Below, in pieces: positions 3,001 to 58,312 of a stretch of 64,000 nt of DNA (position 1 is the stretch's first letter; the number at the start of each line of letters is the position of its first letter). The stretch lies in the NCBI RefSeq assembly GCF_030717995.2, contig NZ_CP157743.1, forward strand, positions 1,178,001-1,242,000, given 5' to 3'. Below the pieces are notes generated by a model that did no database searches, was not told where the DNA came from, and saw only the letters and a list, made by a program, of their open reading frames with translations. The translations under genes were made by a program, and so were the position numbers. Source of the stretch: Methylomarinum sp. Ch1-1. GTDB taxonomy: Bacteria; Pseudomonadota; Gammaproteobacteria; Methylococcales; Methylomonadaceae.

Positions 3001-5650
3001 CCGGCTCATCTTCGTTGAACAACCATTGCGTGCTTTTCAGGCCGACCAGACGGTCGACCGCCAGATAGTCGGCCGAGGTGACGGCGGCGATATATTTACC
3101 GCGTTCATCCCGGACGCTGCTTTCAACCGTTAATTTGCCATAGATGATGTCGGTATCCGGCAATTCCATGCTCACCTGGGTTTCGCCTCGATCATCGAGC
3201 GCTTGCGTTTGTTGCAACAGTTGTCGGTCGTTTTGCCCCCGATAGCTGTCGAAGTGAAAGCCGCGGGCCAGGGGGTGGGCCGAATTGAACTGGCGCGACG
3301 CTAAATCGATGCTCACCCTGGCTTGGGCGTCTTGATAGGCGCCGCCGGAATGCAGTCGGGCCAGGGTGTGAAGGCGCAGTTCGTCGCCGGCATGGAAACG
3401 GTCGCCGTTCAGTTCGTTGCTAACCTTGAACGGCGACGGCGTGAAATCGCTGACCAAGACCTTGAGGGGCTGCCATTGACGGGAAGTGAACGCCGCCTTC
3501 AGCCGAAAACGATACCAGCCGATCGTCGCGCTTTGCGGGATTTTATAGGCGCCATGATAGGCGCCGAATTCGGATAATTCAAGTTCGTCTATTTGATGCA
3601 CGGTCTTCCCGGCAGGGTCGATGATTTCCAGTCGATAACCCTGGCGGGGCGGCGGGACAAAGGTCTGTTTGTCCTGATTGCGCAGATAAAGTTTGAACTG
3701 CATCGTATCGCCGGCGCGGTATATGCCTTGCGCCGTCGTGCCCCAGGCGTGTATATGGCCGAATTCCTGTTGCTGCGAGGCATAGACCGAATAGGAAGAG
3801 GCCCGATAGGTATTGACCTCGAAATGATGGTTCAGCGGCATCAAAGCCATCTGGCCTTGTTTTTCGACTTTGACGAACAAACGCTGACAATTGTCCTGAT
3901 GACAGCGCCAACCGAAGGTTTGCAGCTTGGGGTCCAACTTATCGCTACCCGGCAGCAGGGTGACGCCGTCCCGGTCGGTGACGCCTTGCGCGAGCATCGT
4001 CGGGTCGGCCTGCAGCTTGGTGAGCGCATCCTTATAGATTGACACCTTGGCGTCGGCGACCGGTTCGCCTGTGGCGAAATCGGTCACCCAAACCAGGCTG
4101 TTGAAGTGTCCCAGTTTGACATGCAGCTGATAAGGCGAAACCTGGGAAAAGAAAACCCTGGCCTGGCGGTCTTTGGCGACGGCCGGTGTGGAATCGATTG
4201 CGCCGTAAACGGCTCCGCTTTCGCCGTTCAGCAGCTGTCTTATTGTCAACGGTATGGCGAAGGAAACGTCTTCGGCCTGCGGCACATCGAGCCGTACCGA
4301 TTGGTTTTCTTGTCCGCCCCGCGGCGTCAGCGTGCGGTAGTTTAACGTGATTTTGTCCAGGTTGGTGACATAGAGCGGCAGCTCCGAATCGGTTTGCTGC
4401 TCCAGCACCGAGTGCCGGTAGACTCGGGTGAAATCCGGTTTGCGATGGTCGGTCCAAAAAGTCATGTTTATAGCGGTGTCTAGTTCTCGGCCGAATTCAT
4501 CGTTCAGCCTCATCCCCTCTTTAACCCGAACCCGGTACTGCTGCGCGGCCTTTAACGTTTCCGGCAGCCATACCAGGTAGTTTTGGCCTTTTTTATGCGT
4601 CCAACTCAAACGGGAATAATCACCAACATTGGCCCAAGGATCGTAATCCTTCCGTTCTCCAGCCAGGTCCGGGGTGATCGATAGTTTGTCTTTGACTTCG
4701 GAATTCAGCAGCGGCGAGGAAAAACTCAAGGCGATGCGTTCCAGCGGATTGCATAGTCTGGCAGCGTCGGAATTTTCCGGCGTGATCAACAGTGTTTCGT
4801 TAGCGTTGGAACGGCATGAGATGCCGTTAAATCGGAACTCGGGAAAGGTGTCGAAGCTTACCAGCGTCCTGGATGCTATTCCCCGTTCTTCACCGAATGC
4901 CGAGACCAGGCCGGGTTCCGATTTAAGTTGTACCGGGCTGTTCAGCGGCAATTCGCTGGCAGGGCTCAGTAACCAGACCCGTCGGGCTTCCAGCGTTCCG
5001 GTGAGTGTTGCTTCGTCGTCCACTCTGCGGCTTTGTTGTTTGCCGAAATCGAGCGACGTCTTTTCACCGGGGAGAGTTAGCAAGCGCGGCGCTTGATGAG
5101 CATCGGGATCGGCCTTGGCGATCAGCGCAATCCTCGTCGATGTCTGAGCAGTCGGCGCCGAAAAATACAGATGTCGTTGTACCGAGTCGCGGCTGACCGG
5201 CTGATTGAAAGTCGCCTGCAACAGCGGATGACCCGGTGCTTGCCAGGTTTTAAAACGAACATGCCTAACCCTGGGGCGTTCGGTGATGAATTGGTGCACG
5301 AAAGGTTGTTCGATGAGGGAACCGTCCTGGGCTTTGAGGCCGGGCCAGACGGTCAAGGCGTAGCGGGTCGCCTGTTGCATGGCCGCTTTCTCGCCCAGTT
5401 GGCAGGCCAGTGAGGAGCGGTCCAGCCAGCGCCATTGGCAATCCAGATGGGGAGAGAGGGTGATCGCGACTTCTTCTGGAGTTCGCTCCATCCGGCCGAT
5501 AGGGACGACGGCTCTATCGAACTGAATGACGATCTGGCGACCGGCCGGAACGTCTTCGCCGGATGGATGGATGCTGAGTATTTTCAGCCCTTCATCGCCC
5601 GATGTGACAGTAGAGAGAAATAATAGCGTGAAAAAAATCGTTAGCTTCAT
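1..5650 (-). CDS. Bacterial alpha-2-macroglobulin family protein, 3' end outside window
   Basis: The minus strand is open from an ATG at 5650 through the window edge, about 1,880 codons. The product begins with a signal peptide (MKLTIFFTLLFLSTVTSG) that lacks a lipobox Cys, so a soluble periplasmic form is inferred rather than a lipoprotein like E. coli YfhM. Bacterial macroglobulins trap attacking proteases through an internal thioester. The thioester motif Cys-Trp-Glu-Gln, in the context YPYHCWEQ, is encoded at 1343-1354. Upstream of it are the repeated beta-sandwich MG domains, with a stretch typical of the MG7/CUB region around 2000-2400; downstream is an alpha-helical (toroid) domain. 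No neighbouring pbpC is seen; the usual penicillin-binding protein partner could lie beyond base 1. The family call is secure; the exact C-terminus is unseen. Confidence 0.9.
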   Translation of the reverse strand, partial: MKLTIFFTLLFLSTVTSGDEGLKILSIHPSGEDVPAGRQIVIQFDRAVVPIGRMERTPEEVAITLSPHLDCQWRWLDRSSLACQLGEKAAMQQATRYALTVWPGLKAQDGSLIEQPFVHQFITERPRVRHVRFKTWQAPGHPLLQATFNQPVSRDSVQRHLYFSAPTAQTSTRIALIAKADPDAHQAPRLLTLPGEKTSLDFGKQQSRRVDDEATLTGTLEARRVWLLSPASELPLNSPVQLKSEPGLVSAFGEERGIASRTLVSFDTFPEFRFNGISCRSNANETLLITPENSDAARLCNPLERIALSFSSPLLNSEVKDKLSITPDLAGERKDYDPWANVGDYSRLSWTHKKGQNYLVWLPETLKAAQQYRVRVKEGMRLNDEFGRELDTAINMTFWTDHRKPDFTRVYRHSVLEQQTDSELPLYVTNLDKITLNYRTLTPRGGQENQSVRLDVPQAEDVSFAIPLTIRQLLNGESGAVYGAIDSTPAVAKDRQARVFFSQVSPYQLHVKLGHFNSLVWVTDFATGEPVADAKVSIYKDALTKLQADPTMLAQGVTDRDGVTLLPGSDKLDPKLQTFGWRCHQDNCQRLFVKVEKQGQMALMPLNHHFEVNTYRASSYSVYASQQQEFGHIHAWGTTAQGIYRAGDTMQFKLYLRNQDKQTFVPPPRQGYRLEIIDPAGKTVHQIDELELSEFGAYHGAYKIPQSATIGWYRFRLKAAFTSRQWQPLKVLVSDFTPSPFKVSNELNGDRFHAGDELRLHTLARLHSGGAYQDAQARVSIDLASRQFNSAHPLARGFHFDSYRGQNDRQLLQQTQALDDRGETQVSMELPDTDIIYGKLTVESSVRDERGKYIAAVTSADYLAVDRLVGLKSTQWLFNEDEPAVIDYLVVDAAGKPAAGTPVSLTIQREETVSARVKGAGNAYVSQFSSRWLDAGHCQGVSQQQSSSCEFIPDQPGNYKITATIKDSQGKPHTTVLTVWVAGKGRVVWRQPNDNSLQLIPEKTEYQVGDTARYLVKNPYPGADALVTLERYGVIKQWRQKLTASTPVIEFDIDEELLPGFYFSVVVMSPRVEKPLGDGKIDLGKPAFKIGYLKVPVRDPWKEIDVAIETDAEIYKPGAKVKAHLQAKPRNPDGNQPIELAVVVLDEAVLDLIAGGSRYFAPYRGFYRLEALDVKNYSLLTRLLGRQKFEKKGASSGGDGGGALSMRSLFKYVSYWNPSIKTDDAGNADIEFTLPDNLTGWRILALAVTPGDRMGLGQQSFKVNQPTEIRPVMPNQVSEGDRFMAGFSIMNRSDQKRSIQVVISAEGDLDKAFSLTKTLELDAYQRQTVYAETLASSIKLSRDLDQDEIRFNVTAVDERDGDALRHAIPILKRRALITAADYGSTRDDQVTAALAVPKQIHPDIGDISVELSPSVIGNIGGAFRYLRDYPYHCWEQQLSQAVMAAHFQRLHDYLPDELSWPESAGLPREILARAADFQAPNGGMTYYLPQNDYVSPYLSAYTALAFNWLRDAGHDIPAPVERQLHAYLQTLLRKDASPTFYSKGMAATVRAVALAALSAQGKVGLSDLRRYRPHVPYMSLFGKAHYLQAALAVQGGERLVAEVRDMIISHAQQSGGKLSFNEELDDSYTRILATPLRANCAILSALIQSKQPGDSPFKLVRTITQARGKRDHWENTQENLFCMQALTDYSRRYESEQPALEVSVAVENEPLGDVAFDDRRDRAKTLTLPLHEDMLGQARTVTITRQGRGRLYHSTRLSYAPREGISQPINAGIDLRREYSVERNGRWLLLDSRDPHADSVTNISRGELVRVDLYLSLPAARHFVVVEDPVPGGLEPVNRDLATASGVDAAKGERAMAGGAWWFQFDDWIGYNVSRWSFYHREI

Positions 5651-5715: not shown

Positions 5716-6008
5716 TTGTCGGCTGATAGGGATAGCCAAACCGAGGTGACCGATCAAAAACAGATGGACAGCGCCTTTGCCGATGTCTTCAGCGAATACA
5801 AGTTGGAAGAGCGGCTGGATATTTTGGGTTACGGCTCGCGCGATGCCTATCTGGACGCTGAATCGACCATTGCCGAGAGCTTGCGCATCTGTTGGAAGCG
5901 AATCACACGCCACGGTTTTGGAATATTGTTCGGGCCCAGACCCCCAATATGGATAAGGCGAAGCAATGGCTGCGCAAGCATGGCCAGATTCTTGAGGAGG
6001 ATATTTGA
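5716..6008 (+). pseudogene. Frameshifted short gene relic of unknown function
   Basis: One frame from 5716 reads a plausible acidic helical stretch (ADVFSEYKLEERLDILGYG at about residues 22-40) up to about 5880. There a second frame takes over sensibly and reads FWNIVRAQTPNMDKAKQWL and then a stop at 6006-6008. Joining the two frames gives a compact protein of about 97 residues, so I read this as a gene broken by a one- or two-base indel near 5876-5884. I do not recognise the family. It lies next to other gene fragments and REP palindromes, which fits decay in a recombination-prone spot. It could also be chance reading in a non-coding stretch. Confidence 0.35.
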
Positions 6009-6048
6009 TCTTGGCTGAATGATCCGTTCTGCCAGAATTGCAGGACGC

Positions 6049-6114
6049 TTAAAGTATGATTTCCGCGTCGGCATGGCTGAGCAAAGGGGCGTATCCGGGG
6101 TTCTGCTGCTCCAG
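6049..6114 (-). pseudogene. Relic of the 3' end of the DUF6880-like gene
   Basis: Read on the minus strand this gives LEQQNPGYAPLLSHADAEIIL and a stop, matching the C-terminal part LDQQNPEYAPLISHADYEQQL of the intact gene at 8938-10320. Only about 20 codons remain, ending at a REP palindrome. It is therefore a second, truncated copy of that gene's tail, about 2.9 kb away on the same strand. The two copies bracket the transposase and the AT-rich genes. Confidence 0.7.
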
Positions 6115-6120
6115 TGCTGT

Positions 6121-6170
6121 TTCCCAAAGCTCGAGCTTGGGAAACCAAACCGGGAAGCTCCAGCTTCCCG
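6121..6170. repeat. Pair of REP-type palindromes beside the RAYT gene
   Basis: Two hairpins sit side by side: 6121-6143 (core AAGCTCGAGCTT) and 6151-6170 (GGGAAGCT-CC-AGCTTCCC). The second lies 5 bp beyond the stop codon of the tyrosine transposase at 6176-6709. Related palindromes with the same AAGCTCCAGCTT core recur on the other side of that gene, the usual arrangement of a REP-associated transposase and its substrates. Confidence 0.75.
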
Positions 6171-6175
6171 AACTC

Positions 6176-6709
6176 TCACCACTCTCGAACAACATCGATC
6201 AATCCCGGCTGCCCCAAATAATTCCGCGCACTGGAATAACGCCAATGTTCCGGTCGGTCGACATAACCGCGTTTCACGGGATTCTGATGAATATACTCTA
6301 ACTTCTGCCGCATTACCGACTCGGATTCGATCATTTTCGGATGGCTGCCTTCCTCCCAAATTTGATAGCGACTTTCCGTCTTATGAGCACGCTTAAAAAA
6401 AGCCAGTAATCCTAACAGCCGTTCGGCATTTTGTTGTTCTAAGTGAGCGATGATCTGTTTCGCCGTGTAAGACTTGAAGCGTTGCATATCACGACTTAAA
6501 TCGTCCGATGCGGCAATCAGATGCAAATGATTTTCCAGAATCACATAGCCGTATAACTTGAATTTGCCGGAGTTCTGCAGAAATCGCCAGGAATCTAAAA
6601 CGATATCGACAGTCTGCGGCTGAGTGAATAGCGGCAGCCAAGCGTTGACCGTTGCCGTCAGGAAATGCGGGCAGGGGTTCATCAGGACACGGTAGCTGCT
6701 TTTTGTCAT
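6176..6709 (-). CDS. REP-associated tyrosine transposase (RAYT, IS200-like Y1 family)
   Basis: This 177-residue protein has the two hallmarks of Y1 transposases: a His-hydrophobic-His motif (ENHLHLI, His61 and His63) that binds the metal ion, and a downstream tyrosine (Tyr81 in RFKSYTAKQ) that attacks single-stranded DNA. Length and motif spacing fit RAYT/TnpAREP proteins, which are thought to move or maintain REP hairpins rather than a conventional IS. REP palindromes flank the gene on both sides (6121-6170 and 6735-6834), which supports that role. The start at 6709 is the first ATG in frame. The motifs look intact, so the enzyme may be active. A relic of a second copy lies just upstream at 6844-6903. 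Confidence 0.88.
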   Translation of the reverse strand: MTKSSYRVLMNPCPHFLTATVNAWLPLFTQPQTVDIVLDSWRFLQNSGKFKLYGYVILENHLHLIAASDDLSRDMQRFKSYTAKQIIAHLEQQNAERLLGLLAFFKRAHKTESRYQIWEEGSHPKMIESESVMRQKLEYIHQNPVKRGYVDRPEHWRYSSARNYLGQPGLIDVVREW

Positions 6710-6734
6710 TTTGGCTTTCCTGCGGGTTTAATCA

Positions 6735-6834
6735 GGAAGCTGGAGCTTCCGAGTCTTATTATCCAAGCCGGAGCTTGGATAACAGAGTGCTGTTTATAGA
6801 GCTAATTTCGCTGCTTTCCAAGCTCCAGCTTCCC
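6735..6834. repeat. Three REP-type palindromes upstream of the RAYT gene
   Basis: Hairpins at 6735-6750 (GGAAGCT-GG-AGCTTCC), 6761-6780 (ATCCAAGC-CGG-GCTTGGAT type) and 6816-6834 (CCAAGCTCCAGCTTCCC) share the core of the pair at 6121-6170. They form a small REP cluster around the transposase gene. Confidence 0.7.
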
Positions 6835-6843
6835 AAATACTTA

Positions 6844-6903
6844 CTACTTAAGGGTAATATAGATCAAATCCATCTGCCTCAGATAATTACGAGAACAGGA
6901 AAA
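6844..6903 (-). pseudogene. Relic of a second RAYT gene (C-terminal end only)
   Basis: The minus strand reads SRNYLRQMDLIYITLK and a stop, which matches the C-terminus SARNYLGQPGLIDVV of the intact RAYT at 6176-6709. Base-level similarity ends abruptly at about 6905, where the AT-rich sequence begins. This is the truncated end of another transposase copy and marks the left edge of the AT-rich insert. Confidence 0.7.
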
Positions 6904-6924
6904 GGTTCTTATTGTGAGCGTCTT

Positions 6925-7359
6925 ATGGGAATTGCTGTTTGTGACATTGCAACAAACGTTCTTTTCAAGACAGTTGGCCAATCAAGCACTAGATACGCAT
7001 CAGATGGAAAAGACTATTCTTACGACTTGGAAAGATACAAAGTAGGACTTTCATCAAAAGATAACGAATTAGACTTAGGTCACATTAAAAATGGAAAAAT
7101 CAGTTTAGACTTCTCTCCTGCTTTAGACTTTATTGCCAAAAGCAAAACTGAAAAAGGCTTTTTCAGTTACACAATTAAAACCGGCAATGATGTCTTCAAA
7201 ACTGGAAAAATAACTTTTAATGTAAACTCTCCAGGAAAAACTGGAAGTTGTGGCGAAGAAATACTTAATGATGTTTATGGAGGAACTGATAATCCTCCTG
7301 AAAGTGAAGAAGATAAGGGAGACGAAAATCAAGAATTAGACTCTTATAATAATAAATAA
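6925..7359 (+). CDS. Hypothetical protein in AT-rich island
   Basis: An open frame of 144 codons starts at an ATG (6925) shortly after the RAYT relic. The frame stays open further upstream, but those codons run through REP and relic sequence and are not believable protein. The product is hydrophilic: a central part rich in Lys, Asp and Ser, then a very acidic, Asn-rich tail (PPESEEDKGDENQELD near the C-terminus). I see no signal peptide, membrane segment or family motif, and I do not recognise it. Base composition is far richer in A and T than the neighbouring genes. No good ribosome binding site precedes the ATG, so the N-terminus may have been lost when the island joined the relic. It converges with the broken gene at 7372-8238. 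Confidence 0.45.
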   Translation: MGIAVCDIATNVLFKTVGQSSTRYASDGKDYSYDLERYKVGLSSKDNELDLGHIKNGKISLDFSPALDFIAKSKTEKGFFSYTIKTGNDVFKTGKITFNVNSPGKTGSCGEEILNDVYGGTDNPPESEEDKGDENQELDSYNNK

Positions 7360-7371
7360 GACTTAATTATT

Positions 7372-8238
7372 TTAAAAGTTTAATTTTGAATCAAAAGTGC
7401 TTAATTTTAATTTTTTTTTTGAAAGTTGGTATAAATTACTATCAATTAAGTTTTGAGCAAATTCTCTTTTACCTTGTAATGCTAAATCCATCCCTAGAAT
7501 TCCAGCCGCCTGATAAGTCAAATAAGCATCGTTACATGGGTCCTCTTTCCCATCATATATATGTTCTATATGAATTTCTTTAGGTATTTTTTTAGCTATT
7601 TCATCTAAAACTGCTTTCATTTGTTGTGGCGACATTTTTAAAAATCTGTCTGCCAATATTCTTCTATCTGTTTCTGTTTAATATCCAAGTTTTTGTGCAT
7701 ATCCAAACATTGCATTTGCAAGTAAAGGTTGTGCATGAGAATAACTTCCATCTAAAAACATATAATATCCATGAACTAAATCTCCAAGTAGTGGATTTTC
7801 TCTTTTTAAAGCATATGGACTTGGCCTATCCTTGAATTTAGCTGCCACAATATATCCTGGAAAATTTTTTTCTCTAATTTCATTATTTTTACTATAAAAA
7901 ACATTATCAAATTTTCTAATTGCATTTGGTCTACTCTCAAAATTAAAATTTGCCTCATATTCGGTCCAAATATCAAATAAAAAACGATTTCCTCTAACAA
8001 CATCGGGGATATTTTTAATTTCTTTAGCATCCGCCTCATTAAATCCCGCCTTAACAACATATTCTGTAAGTGGTCCTTTCTGTCCAGTCATTTCGTTATT
8101 TTCCTGTTTATGAACAGAAACATTCCCCAACATCAGTGGAAGTGAAACTAAAGCTGCTCCCACTTTTTTCAAAATTCCTTTCTTAGTATTATCCATGTAA
8201 ACTAAGCTATCTTCTAATCCCATTTTAAAATTGTTCAT
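7372..8238 (-). pseudogene. AT-rich gene of unknown function with an in-frame stop
   Basis: Two open stretches (8238-7678, 186 codons; 7656-7372, 94 codons) lie in the same frame and are separated by a single TAA at 7678-7680. Reading across gives about 288 residues of even character. After the stop the frame continues TETDRRILADRFLKMSP, and the second stretch has no ATG at its head (TTG at 7656), so it looks like the second half of one gene. Residues 19-37 (KKGILKKVGAALVSLPLML) resemble a signal anchor or an uncleaved signal peptide. The rest is hydrophilic and helical. I recognise no family. Either it is a pseudogene, or the stop is read through, or these are two genes. The AT-rich codons match the gene at 6925-7359 and no other gene here, so horizontal acquisition is inferred. 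Confidence 0.5.
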
Positions 8239-8496
8239 AGCATTCTCGAAATTAATATAATTAAAACAGTTAAAATATTGTTATGAAATTAAGGAATAAG
8301 CCAATTCAGATAAAAATAGTATCAACGAGAAATCACAGCAGATACATACAACAAGATAATATTGTTATCAGCGACTAATTAGCAGAAGCATGGCCTAAAT
8401 ATAACGCCGAGTTATCGTCTTATCAAGAAGAGATTGCTATAGTCCTGTCTACCAAACCGAAGCTAAGGCAACTGAGGAGCTAGAGTGGCTCTGTTT

Positions 8497-8809
8497 CCCA
8501 AGCTCCAGTTCATCGTTATACATAAGTCAAAAAAACCAATGCGCTTTCTATATTGTCACAGGATTGATTGATAAGATGTATTCCGATCGGCGTAAAGAGT
8601 GAGCGTTCCGTTGGAGATTGATGGGATTCAATGTTGATGGATGTCCTCACAAGCATGCCTGTGCTCTGTGCCGGAATGCTCCCGGGAGTGCAAAAGCTTG
8701 AGCTTTTGCTTAAAAAAGCTCAAGCTTTTTTACTCCGACGTCATTGCGCATGAGGCTCAACGCGATGTCGAGACAAGATGTGTATAACGATGAGAGCAAG
8801 AGCTTGGGA
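8497..8809. repeat. MITE-like unit with long terminal inverted repeats (D1)
   Basis: Left end CCCAAGCTCCAGTTCATCGT continues TATACAT (8497-8525). The right end (8778-8809) is its inverted counterpart, ATGTGTATAACGATGA followed by GAGCTTGGG. Inside, at 8690-8741, is a double hairpin built on CAAAAGCTTGAGCTTTTG and AAAAAAGCTCAAGCTTTTTT. The same inverted core CATCGTTATACA recurs at 15069-15242. No coding frame is credible between 8239 and 8937. Confidence 0.55.
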
Positions 8810-8937
8810 TACAGAGAAGCCGGAGCGTGGATCACAGAAAGGATGTCTTTCGGTGTTCAAAAGCCTGATCGCCGAGGGTGTTTTGGGTTGAGAGTGATGT
8901 CATGCCGGCTCTCGCCTTACGTTATACTGTAGGTTGG

Positions 8938-10320
8938 TTAGTTGTTATCCACTAAAGGCCAGAAGCTTCGTTTTCGTCCATGTTGTTCGCGTAACTGTTG
9001 TTCATAGTCGGCATGGCTAATCAAAGGCGCGTATTCGGGATTCTGCTGATCCAGTGTGCGCAGTTTCTTCAGATAGTCTGCGGCATGCCGATAAGCTTGG
9101 GACTTGCCTCGATTCAGAATGTCGTCAAGCAGGCAGCGCTGTAACACGATACGGACATGTATTGCTGCGGCCGGCGTCAACTCCAGCAAACGGGTCAATG
9201 TCGCATAATGGCACTGCGCCAGTTCTTTCTGGTCCGCCACGACGCTTTCACGCGCCAGTTCGAACTCTTCCAATCTGAGTAGCAATTCCAGTTTGGCGAC
9301 TGCGGAATTTTTTTGCATGACCAAATCGATTGCCTGTTGGCGTAGGCGTGTCGCTTCGTCCTTGGTGACCAGGGGAATGAGCGCCTGCAGATTTTCGAAG
9401 GTCGGACTGAGTTCGAGACGCGATCTTAAGGCTTCCAGTTGTTGTTGCGGTTGCTGTAGCGCTTGGCGGCATTGCGCCAGTAAAGACAAACGTTCGATAT
9501 TTTCATCTCGCCAAGCAGTCGTTGGCCAAGGTTCGGTCAACCACTGTAAAGCCCCTTGATAATCTTCACAGCGCATATAGAAGCGCGCCAGATCTTCGAG
9601 CTGCATGGGGTTTGGTTGCGAACTGGCCAAGAGGACTGCGCGCCGATATAAGTCCGTATCTTTCAAGGCTTCGGCGATTGCTAGGAGATTGACTTTCCAG
9701 CTCAAATACCTCAGGTCTTCTGCGCCTTGATCCAACGCCTTGCGCAGCCCCGTTTCGTAATAGAAAGCCAGCTGGCGCAACTCATCTTTGCTTAACAGCA
9801 AATGGGCATTGGGCAGTAAGGGATCGAAAATGGCGTAATCGTTGTCATTGGCCATGCGTTTGACCCGCTCCAACCATCCTTCCGGTGGCTCTGGGCTGCG
9901 CTTGGCTGCTTGCAACCATAACAGACAAGCTTGTTGATACAGATCGCCGACATAACCGTTGGAGTCATCGCATCGCTCCAGGCTGTTGGCTGCGGTATTC
10001 AGAAATGCATCCAGCAGCGCGAATGCCTGCTCGGGAGACTTTGGCAGAATATGTTGTTCAATTTCGGCAAGCAGTTGTTGAATTTCATCGCCAAAGGCGT
10101 CGGTTTCGTAATAATCGTAAAACTTTCTTCCCCGTTTCAGGCTCGTGATTTGTTTTCGCAATGATTTTTCCAAGGCATCGCAATCTTCTATTAAGAGGAG
10201 GCGCTCGATGCGTTGGTCAATGCTCTTATCTATGGCGCCATGCAAACTGGCGGTGAACTCCGCCAGCACGTCTTTGTTTAGTTCAGCCAGGTTGGCCTGT
10301 AAAGAGTCTTTCTCATTCAT
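8938..10320 (-). CDS. DUF6880-like helical protein of unknown function
   Basis: The product has 460 residues and is almost entirely predicted helical, with repeated Leu/Ala-rich segments reminiscent of TPR or HEAT arrays (for example residues 205-330). It contains no catalytic motif that I can see. It resembles the C-terminal region of the SWIM-zinc-finger-associated DUF6880 family, but no SWIM Cys/His motif is present. The start is an ATG at 10320. The gene lies downstream of purD on the same strand, 171 bp away, beyond an inverted repeat. Its 3' end exists as a second truncated copy at 6049-6114, evidence of local duplication. The family name is tentative; the coding call is firm because of its length and codon use. 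Confidence 0.7.
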   Translation of the reverse strand: MNEKDSLQANLAELNKDVLAEFTASLHGAIDKSIDQRIERLLLIEDCDALEKSLRKQITSLKRGRKFYDYYETDAFGDEIQQLLAEIEQHILPKSPEQAFALLDAFLNTAANSLERCDDSNGYVGDLYQQACLLWLQAAKRSPEPPEGWLERVKRMANDNDYAIFDPLLPNAHLLLSKDELRQLAFYYETGLRKALDQGAEDLRYLSWKVNLLAIAEALKDTDLYRRAVLLASSQPNPMQLEDLARFYMRCEDYQGALQWLTEPWPTTAWRDENIERLSLLAQCRQALQQPQQQLEALRSRLELSPTFENLQALIPLVTKDEATRLRQQAIDLVMQKNSAVAKLELLLRLEEFELARESVVADQKELAQCHYATLTRLLELTPAAAIHVRIVLQRCLLDDILNRGKSQAYRHAADYLKKLRTLDQQNPEYAPLISHADYEQQLREQHGRKRSFWPLVDNN

Positions 10321-14989: not shown

Positions 14990-15242
14990 CATCATTCCCG
15001 CGCTCTGCGCGGGAATGATATCTGAACCGTTCTGCGGTTCGGGACGCGGGAGCGTCCCTGACCGGGCTTCCACGCAGAGCGCTCATCGTTATACACATCT
15101 TTATGTGAACCATGTCATTCCGGCAGGGATTGCCGAAATCCAGGCTACAAGGATGTATTTGGCTTGTCATCCTTGACTCTGGATACCCGCTCCCGGCGGG
15201 TATGACGAGACTTATGTATAACGATGAGCGCAGAGCGTGGGA
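14990..15242. repeat. Compound palindromic repeat cluster including MITE-like unit D2
   Basis: 14992-15018 is a hairpin (CATTCCCGCG-CTCTG-CGCGGGAATG). 15069-15242 is a unit bounded by inverted repeats with the shared core GCTCATCGTTATACA (left 15069-15098, right 15214-15242). Between them lie two further common palindromic blocks, GGCAGGGATTGCCG at about 15121-15134 and CCCGCTCCCGGCGGG at 15187-15201. No gene is credible here. Confidence 0.6.
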
Positions 15243-39757: not shown

Positions 39758-42568
39758 TTAATTCAATAAACGGGATTCGATTTTTTGTTTGTATTGTAAA
39801 AAATGGACGGTGTGTGCTTGGCTGAGGCTGGCGACGCCGAGGATGTGGGGGGGAACGTCGATTTCATTGATATGGAAGGGGTAATCGTCATGACCGCTTC
39901 TGAATGCCAGTATATGTTTCCTGACATCGGTAAATAGCTTGTCGTTGCTGGACGATGAGAATTTGTGGTCATTGCAGAATATCACGATAGGGTTGCGCCG
40001 GTTCGGGGTTGTTTTGGCGGTAATGCGGATGTTCAGCGCCATCAACGATAATCGAGGTTTTACTTTGATGGCCTGGCAGGAGACGACGCCAGCCGAATTC
40101 TTGTGAATTTCAAAAAAGCGGATGTATATATCATTAGGCACTTTGGCTTGGTCGACCAGGCCATGCAGAAAGGCGGCATAGTTGCTCAGGATTTGTTCCG
40201 GTTTGGTATTGACGTGTTGTCGGGTAAACAGCGCTGCCTTTTCATCGATGATATAGAGGGCGACATGTTTTTTCCCGACATGGTAGAAAACCTGAATGGT
40301 GTTGGCCTTGATTTGGCCGTATAAGTAGGGAATATAAGTGTCGCTGAGCACATGGTCATCAAAATGTACCGGGGCGAAATGTTGCTGAGTTGCGGAGAGT
40401 TCCTGCAGTAGCAAATCATTGCTCTCCAGGCGGCAAAGAGTTAACTGCTGGTCCCGCCGGGTAAAGACAAGATAACCGTTCTGGGCGGGCAAAATATAAC
40501 GCCAGTTTGATTGCGGATGATTGAAAAGCTTTAACAGTCGATTGAAGATGGTTTGGATGCGCAAGACGATGCTTTTCGCCCTTAATGGGGTATGACAAAC
40601 TAACTGCAGGCTATCGGCTGTCAGTGGCGCCTCGGTGTTATTGAAAATTTCGCTGAGGCAATGGAAAAAACCTTCGATGCCCTGGTATTTCGCCGTCGTG
40701 ACTTCCCCCCAAGTGGATAACGAAACCCGGTCGATGCGTTGCACGAAACATTGGCGATTCTCGCCATAGCTCAATGGGTCGGAACGGTGGCTCATGATCA
40801 CTTGGTCGTCATCGCGCCTCTCTTGTAGCGTTTCGCCTAGATTGATGAATAGTAGCGACGCACGTAAACGATTCGGGTGATTATAAACCGCCAATGAATC
40901 GGCGGACGAATGCTGAATCGTGGAAAAAAACTCCTGCAATCGCTTCAATATTTGTAGCGTTTCCGCTTCATTAACGTTCAGGTTGTTGGACTGCAGATGT
41001 ATCTTCAGCTTAGTCTGATACAGGCCGTTAATTACCACCCAGGAGAGAATTTCCAGCAAGCTTTCGCCTTCGGTCACGGCGCTTGCCGCCGCCACTTTGT
41101 TGCGCTCGACATAACCGCAGTATAGCCGCCAGAGCGGCTCGGCGTGTTCCTGGTCGATCTCGATCACCGACAACAGCTCTTCTTTTTTATGAATGCTGGC
41201 GCAGGTGGTGATGATTTCGATCTTGCCCGGCTTATATTCCAAAAAGGCATGTAATTTTCTGCCGATTAGTTTCAGGTCGTTATTGTCGTGATAATTTCCT
41301 TGAGCATGTTGGCCGGCAAAGCGCAAAATCATGCGTAGGCACTGCTTCAATTGATCGCGAATAATGGCGTGTTCGTGCTTGGCTTTGTTGATGTCCCAAT
41401 ACCGGTGTTTGCTGAATTTTTCCAGCATATCGCCGGGCCAACGCCATTGTTCGGCTATGTTCTGCAAGTAATGTTCGCGTAGCGCACGCGACCTGGGGTC
41501 CAGGGACTTCGGGGAGGAGCCGATGATTTTCAGATAAAAGCATTGTCGCGATAGCGCCAGGCGTTTTCGTGAGGCGACCAAGTGCAGGTAGTCTTCGACC
41601 TTTTCGTAGATCAACAGGTAGGGGTCCAGTTTATCGATATCGAATTGGCCTTGATAAATGGCGCGTTTAAGACTCCAGCTAATCCATTGGGGATGCGGAT
41701 ATTCGCTGGCATAGCATTCCATCAAAAAAAGTTTCAGCAGCGATTTATAGGGCGAAGCTAATGATTTATAGATATGCCACAGCGTGGCGCTGATGAATTC
41801 TTCGGCGGGGACCGCTTGTAGGCTGCCGAAATCGATGACTTCATGAGCCGATATGAAGCGGTTTTCCAGTAAATGATTGACATAGCCGGTGTAATTGTGT
41901 TCCTGGTGCGGAGGGACTGCCCACCAGGCGGGAACTTTGCCGGCCAGATAAATCGCAGTTCGGTAAAACTCCTCCAACAGCAGATAATGTTGGGTTTTGC
42001 CGCTGCTTTCCGTGGAAATCGGGGCATTTTCGCCGCGTCGGAATTGTTCGCTGTTGATGAGAAAAAAATGCGCCTCGATATTCAATGACTGCGCCCATTT
42101 TTCCACCGCGATGGCTTTTTGTTGCAGTTCCTCGATGGCTGTGCTATCCAGCTTAGAGGAATGACAAAGCCAGATATCCATGTCGCTGGTTTTGGAAAAG
42201 GCGATGCTGCCGACGCTGCCCATCAGGAAAATCCCTTCGATGGGATAATCGCGCAGCGCCTTGCGGGTATAGCGAAAACTCTTGGAAAATTGTTTCGCCG
42301 CCTGCAGACTGGTTTTGTTCGGCGCGTAGTCGGGAATGCCGGCCGGTGTTTCGGTGGATATGAAGCCGGGCAGCAAGGGGAGGTTTTGATGAAAAATGAG
42401 CGGCAGCAGGTGCAGAAAGTTCCGCTGTCTCGGCTGCAGAAAGTTTTGCACGTTGAGCAGCCGATACTGATTCAGGTTCTTGAAGCGCTGAATAATGGCG
42501 TGCAGATCTTTGGTGCTGATGTCTTCGCCGGGTGAACCGAGCGTGATGGGAAGGTAATTTTTTTTCAA
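39758..42568 (-). CDS. cyaA: Class I adenylate cyclase
   Basis: 936 residues, somewhat longer than E. coli CyaA (848). It makes cAMP from ATP in the cytosol. The nucleotidyltransferase signature GSVGSIAFSKTSDMDIWLCH is at about residues 116-135, with Asp-x-Asp as metal ligands. VPAWWAVPPHQEHNYTGYV follows near 215. The long C-terminal part is the regulatory region, without the extra His-rich tail I would need to name a PTS interaction site. It is a single gene: repeats lie on both sides and no partner such as crp is nearby. Confidence 0.93.
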   Translation of the reverse strand: MKKNYLPITLGSPGEDISTKDLHAIIQRFKNLNQYRLLNVQNFLQPRQRNFLHLLPLIFHQNLPLLPGFISTETPAGIPDYAPNKTSLQAAKQFSKSFRYTRKALRDYPIEGIFLMGSVGSIAFSKTSDMDIWLCHSSKLDSTAIEELQQKAIAVEKWAQSLNIEAHFFLINSEQFRRGENAPISTESSGKTQHYLLLEEFYRTAIYLAGKVPAWWAVPPHQEHNYTGYVNHLLENRFISAHEVIDFGSLQAVPAEEFISATLWHIYKSLASPYKSLLKLFLMECYASEYPHPQWISWSLKRAIYQGQFDIDKLDPYLLIYEKVEDYLHLVASRKRLALSRQCFYLKIIGSSPKSLDPRSRALREHYLQNIAEQWRWPGDMLEKFSKHRYWDINKAKHEHAIIRDQLKQCLRMILRFAGQHAQGNYHDNNDLKLIGRKLHAFLEYKPGKIEIITTCASIHKKEELLSVIEIDQEHAEPLWRLYCGYVERNKVAAASAVTEGESLLEILSWVVINGLYQTKLKIHLQSNNLNVNEAETLQILKRLQEFFSTIQHSSADSLAVYNHPNRLRASLLFINLGETLQERRDDDQVIMSHRSDPLSYGENRQCFVQRIDRVSLSTWGEVTTAKYQGIEGFFHCLSEIFNNTEAPLTADSLQLVCHTPLRAKSIVLRIQTIFNRLLKLFNHPQSNWRYILPAQNGYLVFTRRDQQLTLCRLESNDLLLQELSATQQHFAPVHFDDHVLSDTYIPYLYGQIKANTIQVFYHVGKKHVALYIIDEKAALFTRQHVNTKPEQILSNYAAFLHGLVDQAKVPNDIYIRFFEIHKNSAGVVSCQAIKVKPRLSLMALNIRITAKTTPNRRNPIVIFCNDHKFSSSSNDKLFTDVRKHILAFRSGHDDYPFHINEIDVPPHILGVASLSQAHTVHFLQYKQKIESRLLN

Positions 42569-42632
42569 GACAGCTTAGGCAAAGAGAATCGTTTAGTTAA
42601 GTATATACCTCGGTTCGGTTAAGAAACGTAAA

Positions 42633-42726
42633 GAGTATCAGGCGGCGATTCCAGAAGACGCCGTTCACCCAGCACCTAAATACCATAGGCTATTGATTAT
42701 ACTTCTTCCATCAACGCCTGATACTC
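42633..42726. repeat. Inverted repeat enclosing a truncated B end
   Basis: GAGTATCAGGCG (42633-42644) and its perfect reverse complement CGCCTGATACTC (42715-42726) enclose 70 bp. That spacer includes CGCCGTTCACCCAGCACC and then TAAATACCATAG at 42659-42690, one end of a B-type module. It lies between cyaA and the histidine phosphatase gene, and no gene is present. Confidence 0.5.
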
Positions 42727-42785
42727 ATGTCTCTCAACCAGTTGGGCATTTGTTTATTCCGAATGTAGATTAAGTATAGAAAAAA

Positions 42786-43382
42786 TTACAGCGGCTTGTG
42801 CAAGATTAACTGGGTATAGGTATCGCTTGTTTGATGATAACAGTTCAAGCGACTCAAGCAGGCGTGGCCGATGCCGATTTGAAAACTCTGTCTGAATGGG
42901 ATGCCCAGCAGCTGTGACAATAAGGTGCGAATCACGCCGGCATGCGTGACGACTAACAGATGTTGTTCAGGATAGCGACTTAGCAATGCTTGCCAGGCGC
43001 GGTCCACCCGTCGACTAAAATCGGCGTGTTTTTCGCCATGCGGCGGCGTGTTGCCGCATGGGTCGGCATAATAGCGTGTCAGGGCTGCTGGCGATCGCTG
43101 TTCGATTTGCGCGGCGGTCTTGCCGTCCCAATCACCGAAATCGATTTCTTGCCAGCGCGCGTCGACGTGTAACGGAAGATTTTTCTGCTTAGCCAATTGC
43201 TTCGCGAAATCATGACAACGGGCTAATGGTGAACTGATGATACGATCCCAGCATTGGTCTGCGGTCTGCCGCTGCATTTGTCGCCACCCAAGCGGCGTCA
43301 GCGGGTCATCGGTGCGGCCACGATAACAGGCTCCGCCCAGGGCTTCCCCATGGCGGAGCAGGTCGATCGTCGTCGTTTTCAC
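42786..43382 (-). CDS. Histidine phosphatase family protein (CobC/phosphoglycerate mutase-like)
   Basis: 198 residues. The catalytic phospho-His motif is LLRHGEA (Arg10, His11, Gly12), the second histidine lies in [12 protein letters not shown] near residue 145, and the Glu of [10 protein letters not shown] is typical. The sequence resembles alpha-ribazole phosphatase (CobC), which removes a phosphate late in cobalamin assembly, but no other cobalamin gene is nearby and family members vary in substrate. The start is a GTG at 43382 whose bases overlap the argH stop (GTGA), so translation is probably coupled to argH. Confidence 0.85.
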
Positions 43383-51063: not shown

Positions 51064-52068
51064 TTAGTGGTCCCGCTGCACCGAAAAACGGGCTAACTGT
51101 TCCAGCGCTTGTTTGTATTCGGAATCAGGCAAGCAGGCCAGGGCGTCGATGGCCTTTTGCGCGGCGTCATCGGCGCATTTTTCGGTGTATTCGATCGCGT
51201 TCGTCGCCTTGACGATTTCATAGACTTCGGCAAACGCTTCGCGGGAGCCTTGTTTGATCGCGTTCGTGACCGTGGCGGCTTGTTCCGGTGTGCCGTGCTG
51301 TATCGCATGGATTAACGGCAGTGTCGGTTTGCCTTCGGCTAGGTCGTCGCCGAGGTTCTTGCCGAGTTCTTCGGCGTTGGCCTTGTAATCCAATGCATCG
51401 TCGATCAATTGGAAGGCGACGCCGAGTTCCTGGCCGTAGGTCGCCAATGCTTCCTCGGTTTGCGCATCGGCGTCGGAAAGCACTGCGGCCAAGCGAGTGG
51501 CTGCGCTGAACAGGATCGCCGTTTTGCGGGCGATGACCTCCAGGTATTTTTGTTCGGTCGTTTCCGGATTGTTGCAGTTTAATAACTGCAGCACTTCGCC
51601 TTCGGCGATGGCCGTGGTGGTCTTGGACAGGATTTCCATGACGCGCATATTGTTGGTGCGCACCATCATTTCGAAAGCGCTGGAGTAAAGATAATCGCCG
51701 ACCAGTACGCTGGCGGCGTTGCCCCAGACCGCGTTGGCGGAGTCTTTGCCGCGTCGCAGATCCGATTCGTCGACGACATCATCATGCAGCAGCGTCGCGG
51801 TATGAATGAATTCAATCACTGCGGCCAGGACCAGATGATCATGGCGGGTTTCGCCCAGGGCCTTGGCAGCGAGCAATAACAGCATCGGCCGTAATCTCTT
51901 GCCGCCGCTGCCGATGATGTAATGGCCCATTTGATTGATGAGCACGACATCGGAGCTCAGTTCATCCAGGATCAGGCGATCAACAGCTTTGGCTTCCGCT
52001 GTAGTCAGGTTTTTTATTGAATTAAAATCAATTGGTGCCGAAGCGTTGAATGAATCTTCTACTGCCAT
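51064..52068 (-). CDS. ispB: Polyprenyl diphosphate synthase (octaprenyl type)
   Basis: 334 residues. It builds the side chain of ubiquinone by adding isopentenyl units to farnesyl diphosphate. The first Asp-rich motif is LLHDDVVDESDLRRG (DDxxD at about 95-99), and the second is LIDDALDYKANAEELGKNLG near 222. GGKRLRPMLLLLAAKAL binds the diphosphate. It is divergent from rplU-rpmA, the same arrangement as in E. coli and Pseudomonas. Confidence 0.95.
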   Translation of the reverse strand: MAVEDSFNASAPIDFNSIKNLTTAEAKAVDRLILDELSSDVVLINQMGHYIIGSGGKRLRPMLLLLAAKALGETRHDHLVLAAVIEFIHTATLLHDDVVDESDLRRGKDSANAVWGNAASVLVGDYLYSSAFEMMVRTNNMRVMEILSKTTTAIAEGEVLQLLNCNNPETTEQKYLEVIARKTAILFSAATRLAAVLSDADAQTEEALATYGQELGVAFQLIDDALDYKANAEELGKNLGDDLAEGKPTLPLIHAIQHGTPEQAATVTNAIKQGSREAFAEVYEIVKATNAIEYTEKCADDAAQKAIDALACLPDSEYKQALEQLARFSVQRDH

Positions 52069-52201
52069 TTTTTAGTCGAGGTTCGGTATTCCATTAGGGA
52101 ATATTAAAATAACCCGCCATGCTATTTAAAAACAGGGGGTGGTGTCAATGACTTTGTTGTGCTATTTTATGCCTAATTCATCTTGCCGTCTAAATTAAAG
52201 T

Positions 52202-52230
52202 TTGACGGCATATTTTTTTATAAATATAAT
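52202..52230 (+). promoter_or_regulatory. Sigma-70 promoter of rplU-rpmA
   Basis: TTGACG (52202-52207) and a perfect TATAAT (52225-52230) are spaced by exactly 17 bp in an AT-rich stretch, 47 bp upstream of the rplU start. This is the clearest promoter in the window and fits a ribosomal protein gene. Confidence 0.85.
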
Positions 52231-52277
52231 TATCTGTTCACTTTTAACAGATTAAATGCTTGATGGAGCTTGCGCTG

Positions 52278-52589
52278 ATGTATGCGGTAATTCAAACAGG
52301 TGGTAAACAGTACCGAGTCGAAGAAGGTGCGACCTTAAAAATAGAGAAACTTGAACTGGGAACAGGCGACAGCATTGAGTTTGACAAAGTGCTGATGGTG
52401 AAATCAGACAGTGCTGTTAAGGTCGGTCAACCTTATGTCGATGGCGGCAAGGTGACGGCGGAGGTCGTTTCCCAAGGTAGACACAAGAAAGTAAAAATTA
52501 TTAAATTTAAACGACGTAAGCACCACATGAAGCAAATGGGTCATCGTCAGTACTATACAGAAGTCAAGATTACTGGTATTTCTGCATAA
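52278..52589 (+). CDS. rplU: 50S ribosomal protein L21
   Basis: 103 residues from the ATG at 52278 ([17 protein letters not shown]), the family's invariant N-terminus; the open frame six codons upstream is ignored. The C-terminus [20 protein letters not shown] contains the L21 signature. L21 binds 23S rRNA in the large subunit. It is the first gene of the rplU-rpmA operon, 18 bp from rpmA, with GGAG as ribosome binding site. Confidence 0.98.
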
Positions 52590-57320: not shown

Positions 57321-57484
57321 CGAAAAACGACGGGATCGATGTCGGCATAGTTTTGTCACAGCACCTATTAGTTAAGGTAGAATAGCGCAGGGTTTTGCGA
57401 AAGTTTCGCTAATTTTCAGCTTTTTCAGAATATTATGCTGAAAAGTCGAGTTTTCTTTTTACAAGTATATTGACATTGACAGGT

Positions 57485-58312
57485 ATGAAGACAAAAGCAA
57501 TTGGATTTATCGGAGGCGGCAATATGGCCGCCAGTTTAATCACCGGTTTGATCGAAAGTGGGCATTCACCTAAGCAGATATGGGTTTCCGATATCAATGA
57601 GGAGCTACTGCAATCGCTTGCGGCTAAGTTGAAGATTAACGTCACCATCAATAATGAAACGGTGATTAATGAATCTGATGTCGTGGTGATGGCGGTTAAA
57701 CCTCAGGTGTTGCGACAAGTGGCGAGCCAAGTCGCGGACGCGGTGCAGCGCAACAAGGTGCTGTTGGTGTCGATTGCCGCCGGCATCAGCCAACAAAGCC
57801 TATCGCAATGGTTGGGACAGCAGGTGCCGATCGTGCGATGCATGCCGAATACGCCGGCGTTGGTGCTGAGCGGCGCGACTGCCTTGCACGCCAATGTCAA
57901 GGTCAACGACGAGCAGAAAGATCTGGCGGAAAATATTTTGCGCGCCGTCGGTTTGACGTTGTGGGTGGAACAGGAATCCGAGCTGGATGCGGTCACGGCC
58001 GTTTCCGGCAGCGGCCCGGCTTATTATTTCTTGTTGATGGAGGCGATGGAAAAGGCTGCCCAGGAGCTCGGGCTCAGCGAAGGTACCGCCAGGCTGCTGG
58101 TTCAGCAAACCGCGTTGGGGGCGGCTAAGATTGCGTTGGAATCTGAAGAGTCGCCGGCGCAACTCCGGGCTCGAGTCACGTCACCGGGGGGCACGACCCA
58201 ACAGGCTATCGAAACTTTTCAGCAAGGCGAATTCGTTCAGTTAGTATCGAAAGCGATGCATGCCGCCAGAGATAGGTCGGTCAAAATGTCTAAAGAATTA
58301 GGGGAACAATAA
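57485..58312 (+). CDS. proC: Pyrroline-5-carboxylate reductase
   Basis: 275 residues from the ATG at 57485 (MKTKAIGFIGGGNMAASLITG); a TTG five codons upstream is less likely. It reduces pyrroline-5-carboxylate to proline. The Rossmann motif GFIGGGNMA is at residues 7-15. The active-site regions are RCMPNTPALVLSGATAL and TAVSGSGPAYYFLLMEAM; the C-terminal SPGGTTQQAIETF is standard. Its last base overlaps the first of yggT (TAATG). In relatives yggS precedes proC; here the region upstream is family A copy A7 and a hairpin (57414-57444). Confidence 0.97.
   Translation: MKTKAIGFIGGGNMAASLITGLIESGHSPKQIWVSDINEELLQSLAAKLKINVTINNETVINESDVVVMAVKPQVLRQVASQVADAVQRNKVLLVSIAAGISQQSLSQWLGQQVPIVRCMPNTPALVLSGATALHANVKVNDEQKDLAENILRAVGLTLWVEQESELDAVTAVSGSGPAYYFLLMEAMEKAAQELGLSEGTARLLVQQTALGAAKIALESEESPAQLRARVTSPGGTTQQAIETFQQGEFVQLVSKAMHAARDRSVKMSKELGEQ

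Follow-up and report, generated by a model that had tools for sequence, protein, structure and literature searches.

How did a short AT-rich stretch with two orphan genes come to lie among transposase and repeat relics in the chromosome of Methylomarinum sp. Ch1-1? We addressed this question in a 64-kb window, the whole stretch of DNA that was analyzed (G000:C2:1178001-1242000, from a 4.77-Mb genome in three contigs). The element in question, here called the island, starts at position 6905 of the window and lies among repetitive extragenic palindromes (REPs) and REP-associated tyrosine transposases (RAYTs). We concluded, with a probability of roughly 0.78, that the island is a small decaying remnant that was acquired horizontally from an unsampled AT-rich donor and sits in a REP/RAYT hot spot within a strain-specific accessory block. 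We read it this way because of the GC contrast, the codon use, the presence of its two cargo genes, A and B, in the window genome only, and the lack of the whole block in two relatives (G001 and G002).

A sequence-only reading of this DNA had reported a sharp drop in base composition from about 6905. Consistently with this, we found that GC is 30.9% in 6905-8380 and 53.1% in the whole window. When 1500-bp windows were moved in 50-bp steps, the island was the sole spot below 45% GC. In 300-bp windows, GC drops to 0.27-0.35 from about 6900 to about 8400, and three shallower dips occur elsewhere at that scale, at 42551-42850 (0.393), 51951-52450 (0.347), and 57401-57700 (0.397). Island DNA (6900-8400) has a single match in its own genome. 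The features of the island are these:

6905..8380, no strand: AT-rich island, 30.9% GC
8381..8488, no strand: intermediate-GC stretch from the island to the REP, 45.4% GC; the right island edge is here or at 8380
6925..7359, plus strand: cargo gene A, 144 amino acids (aa) from the first internal ATG, with an acidic C-terminus
7372..8238, minus strand: cargo gene B, 288 codons plus stop, with an in-frame TAA at 7678-7680

The longest stop-free run in the island is 200 codons, and the longest run that passes one stop is 301 codons; the maxima in 500 dinucleotide shuffles were 148 and 174, respectively. We found two genes, tail to tail with a gap of 12 bp. Two or three genes of no known family had been proposed; the lack of a family held, and the count came down to two, with B interrupted by its TAA. 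Gene B, which has a hydrophobic stretch near its N-terminus, uses AGA for 9/11 Arg and GGA for 14/18 Gly codons, and its base content by codon position is 0.44, 0.30, and 0.18 (GC at third positions [GC3], 0.18). Gene A likewise uses GGA for 10/15 Gly codons. In contrast, purD, taken as the host comparison, uses CGC (12/15) and GGC (40/46) and has a GC3 of 0.74. The codon choice of A and B is thus coherent, and its preference for GGA and AGA is unlike that of host genes. The frame of A is open leftward into a RAYT relic (235 codons from 6652), so the true start of A is uncertain and the gene may be truncated. In all likelihood the cargo no longer functions, given the stop in B and the possible loss of the start of A. 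Promoter-like sites in 6800-8950 number 11, not clearly above the chance mean of 7.3 (standard deviation, 2.3).

Comparison with relatives placed the island within a larger variable segment. An alkB-like gene and purD are 12,831 bp apart in the window genome, 13 bp in G001, and 67 bp in G002. In the window genome, this 12.8-kb block holds pbpC, an alpha-2-macroglobulin gene, the REP/RAYT repeats, the island, and a DUF6880 gene. From left to right, the alpha-2-macroglobulin gene (which ends at 5650) is followed by a broken frame, a DUF6880 relic, the REP/RAYT repeats, the island, a split REP, another REP, DUF6880, and purD. The order in G001, a genome of the same genus, is YfiR-like, GGDEF/EAL, TonB receptor, alkB-like, purD, purH, and dusB on one contig (names read from translations, with alkB-like and purD assigned by Pfam). 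Thus, the empty site that the sequence-only reading had proposed to look for exists for the whole block in both relatives; the island's own site was not seen, and no relative has the block minus the island. Of 6 genomes of the genus, 2 carry the alpha-2-macroglobulin gene: the window genome itself and, at 44% identity, G004. DUF6880 is present in 6/41 relatives, the window genome included. Because of these counts and the tiny gaps in G001 and G002, the 12.8-kb block and DUF6880 are both accessory.

We then asked what is known of the cargo. Genes A and B had no significant match in Pfam, NCBIfam, PHROGs, PADLOC, or PDB sequences, and we judged the weak matches to DUF6179 (E value, 0.064), three PHROGs (E, 0.12 to 0.16), and PptT (E, 0.078) to be chance. 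A translated search (tblastn) of both genes against phages and plasmids gave nothing better than an E of 1, and DNA searches of phage and plasmid collections gave no match. Pattern scans of viral contigs with A, B, and three pieces of B, and of genome contigs with B alone, found no relative; these single-protein scans rely on exact 8-residue patterns and reach close relatives only. Structure prediction without alignments was uninformative, with mean pLDDT (predicted local distance difference test) scores of 41.9 for B (TAA read as Y) and 38.8 for A, too low for a fold search. Of the profile and structure checks suggested earlier, then, neither named a family, and what they left standing is the orphan status of the cargo within the sets searched. 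Nor does the cargo occur at this locus in most relatives, which would have refuted the sequence-only reading: the window genome was the sole match for B among 41 relatives and for A among 101.

Larger genome sets, drawn mostly from Pseudomonadota and archaea and searched with B, gave the same answer. The window genome was again the sole match for B among 398 genomes drawn from the phylum Pseudomonadota, and on this sample we rejected an origin in that phylum. Gene B had 0 matches in 35 genomes that were accessed by way of loci (archaea for the most part, one labeled Campylobacteraceae) and 0 in 371 genomes from the phylum of the Woesearchaeota genome G042. A few archaeal loci overlap with A plus B in codon use, and no group is singled out (19 loci were chosen, and 18 gave rows). 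The GGA/AGA habit would fit DPANN archaea (L117 or L093, for example) and other AT-rich lineages as well. We therefore set aside a DPANN or other archaeal origin, as B had no match in the archaeal sets and codon use singled out no group. It is a speculative thought, and a doubtful one, that A and B came from AT-rich cells or viruses outside the searched collections, for example an episymbiont or a host virus, which would make the islet a fossil of that contact; any unsampled donor lineage proposed from these data is a guess.

The island borders are clearest on the left, where the flank is built as follows:

6056..6116, minus strand: relic of the tail of a DUF6880-like gene; abuts the REP at 6117, and its frame reads ETALEQQNPGYAPLLSHAD...
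6117..6171, no strand: REP palindromes 3' of RAYT1, with their inverted partner at 6732-6776
6176..6709, minus strand: RAYT1, an intact RAYT of 177 aa, NCBIfam NF047646 (REP_Tyr_transpos)
6732..6833, no strand: REP palindromes (inverted repeats) from RAYT1 to the second RAYT relic
6834..6904, minus strand: tail relic of a second RAYT, whose end is the left island edge

This agrees with the chain of REPs, intact RAYT, more REPs, and second RAYT tail that the sequence-only reading had described. RAYT1 scored 103.4 bits against NF047646 (cut-off, 80) and 17.8 against Pfam Y1_Tnp, under the cut-off of 23. Copies 81 to 85% identical to it are present in G001 and G004. It lies between two inverted REPs, 6127-6171 and 6732-6776, which are 78% complementary. 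The segment 6820-6904 matches the 3' part of a G001 RAYT (76%; E, 3e-11) and the tail of RAYT1 itself (72%). The left island edge is sharp, as the truncated tail ends at 6904 and the island begins at 6905. A tblastn search of 6720-8940 with RAYT1 recovered nothing from the 5' portion of the second RAYT; the best match (E, 0.17) was the tail.

The DUF6880 relic is also real: 6067-6116 matches 9007-9056, within the intact DUF6880 gene on the right, at 88% over 50 nt (E, 9e-12). These two tails had been taken to bracket the island, but their role as its own boundaries was not supported: G001 and G002 lack the whole alkB-like-purD block. The relic itself meets the REP next to RAYT1 at 6116/6117. 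It lies some 790 bp away from the island, which begins only after the intact RAYT, and we rejected it as a boundary. Directly next to the island are the truncated second RAYT on the left and, past the short intermediate-GC stretch, a REP split by a miniature inverted-repeat transposable element (MITE) on the right. The intermediate stretch (8381-8488) is 108 nt with a broken frame that reads LAEAWPKYNAELSSYQEEIAIVLS...; it is perhaps a scrap of another gene. To the left of the relic, 5716-6018 is an unassigned frame, apparently the 3' end of a broken gene, that runs on in another frame to ...ILEEDI and a stop; it had no Pfam match.

Other RAYT/REP loci, known as bacterial interspersed mosaic elements (BIMEs), likewise have an intact RAYT between inverted REPs and a degraded second RAYT next to it (e.g., those of PMC2817692). 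Here, unlike in those loci, an AT-rich foreign piece appears to stand in place of the 5' part of the second RAYT. According to the model that we propose, two REP-RAYT-REP units would once have lain side by side after the DUF6880-like tail. The foreign piece would then have displaced the 5' part of the second of these RAYTs, whose 3' tail (6834-6904) stayed behind together with the right-hand REP; the tail stops at 6904, and a matching right-hand REP lies at 8817-8838. The MITE, with ends that may be Tn5/IS50-like, would have settled in this right-hand REP. We infer this order of events, the route of entry, and the loss of function of the cargo.

The right flank consists of the following:

8489..8508, no strand: left half of a REP palindrome, inverted partner 8800-8816
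8509..8794, no strand: MITE of 286 bp, with ends CTCATCGTTATACACATCTT and (here with TTC) TTCATCGTTATACATAAGTC
8795..8838, no strand: right half of the split REP plus a further REP (8817-8838, 91% to 6765-6786)
8938..10320, minus strand: intact DUF6880 gene, 460 aa, PF21810 (151.5 bits; cut-off, 27.3)

The MITE-like unit and the intact DUF6880-like gene had both been anticipated. The MITE is a short repeated unit with inverted ends and no gene, and it belongs to a family spread over the genome: its end pattern (at most one mismatch) occurs at 36 sites in G000, 6 in G001, 1 in G002, and 0 in G003 to G005, and a reversed-pattern control gave 0. From 30 loci plus the window, we paired 14 distinct MITEs, 11 in G000 and 3 in G001, with identical sequences counted once; two more pairs lie outside the 14, and sites L169, L173, L188, and L197 had no partner. 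Copies L193 and L198 share nearly identical flanks and are not independent. The lengths are 147 to 148, 206 to 210, 285 to 296, and 393 bp. A perfect 9-bp target duplication flanks 7/14 copies, and at least 8/9 positions match in 10/14 (random 9-mers, 2/3000). The family thus shows target duplication, which is missing from the window copy (1/9), L171, L181, and L186. Half of the copies (7/14) lie in palindromes that score no lower than the 99th percentile of 3000 randomly chosen places, and the palindrome around the window copy scores highest (14). Within the window MITE, 8685-8736 is a strong hairpin with 23-nt arms that are 91% complementary, and the DNA fold computed for 8670-8760 has an energy of -22.8 kcal/mol (z, -4.7). 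Another member, of 147 bp, lies at 15082-15228 inside a REP-like palindrome, with a perfect 9-bp duplication (CGCAGAGCG).

Tn5 makes a 9-bp target duplication, and the MITE family shares that length. The MITE ends match those of Tn5/IS50 at 14/19 positions each, one end the mosaic end (ME) and the other the outside end (OE). This likeness is suggestive only, because, counting both strands of the window, 7 further places also reach at least 13/19. Compared with the OE and ME oligonucleotides in PMC3347997, the MITE has TTATACACATCT identical to ME, and positions 3 to 7 differ. PMC1525189 describes ISRm22, an insertion sequence of the IS4 family that targets REPs within the middles of palindromes, and explains REP-inserted copies without matching direct repeats by recombination between copies. 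Our MITE resembles ISRm22, as described there, in being a mobile unit in mid-REP with some copies lacking matching duplications. It differs in being non-autonomous, in its 9-bp rather than six-base duplications, and in that 7/14 rather than all copies lie in palindromes. We saw no autonomous parent for the family, and no transposase was found or sought. Literature searches on IS50-linked MITEs and on REPs, RAYTs, and MITEs in methanotrophs listed no published report of it.

We weighed three other explanations for the island. It could be an old resident of the lineage, a fast-evolving AT-rich ORFan locus with no transfer, and the lack of any homologue outside the window genome fits this; we consider it unlikely, as the codon use is coherent and unlike that of the neighbors, the whole block is missing from G001 and G002, and the left edge cuts a RAYT. 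Still less probable is that 6117-8838 moved as one composite unit, with the AT-rich piece as cargo of a RAYT/REP or MITE parent transposon. Island DNA is single in its own genome, with no second copy of such a composite; the left flank has no MITE copy, and a target duplication is absent. We give equally little credence to an assembly artefact or a contaminant joined into the chromosome. Assemblers are prone to error among repeats, and the island is an AT-rich orphan in just such a place, but it lies inside a 4.44-Mb contig of a three-contig genome rated 100% complete with 1.28% contamination, and its edges are old decayed repeats rather than clean joins.

Several points weigh against a horizontally acquired, decaying remnant. 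The case for transfer is built on composition and absence in relatives, and no donor or homologue was found. Decay is seen in B alone, as one stop that sequencing error or readthrough could explain. More than one order of events would fit, as neither the island nor the adjoining MITE is flanked by a target duplication. Three relatives show no empty site as such: the G003 contig ends 267 nt past purD, G004 has two small genes and then a contig end, and G005 has a different gene after purD. Small horizontally acquired ORFan islets occur in bacterial genomes, and the island is like them in being AT-rich, short, and strain-specific with orphan genes; we see no categorical difference. All of these data taken together partly support the interpretation from sequence alone: a foreign island in a recombining place with transposase and REP relics agrees with the composition, the codon use, and the absence of A and B from other relatives.

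The DUF6880 gene on the right has a 76% identical relative in G001, which is located elsewhere, beside what reads as parAB and near a DarT/macro-domain pair (L009 10353-12054). The protein also matches the PADLOC candidate PDC-S62 nearly end to end and weakly (E, 2.5e-5; 21 bits). We found no mention of DUF6880 by name in the literature searched.

The island offers a small, clear example of foreign DNA lodged in REP/RAYT repeats, and the alkB-like to purD gap is an accessory hot spot in the genus. The MITE family, with its possibly Tn5-like ends and half of the examined copies in palindromes, is a countable system for asking why transposons home to REPs. The donor, if found, would name a gene-transfer partner of the organism.

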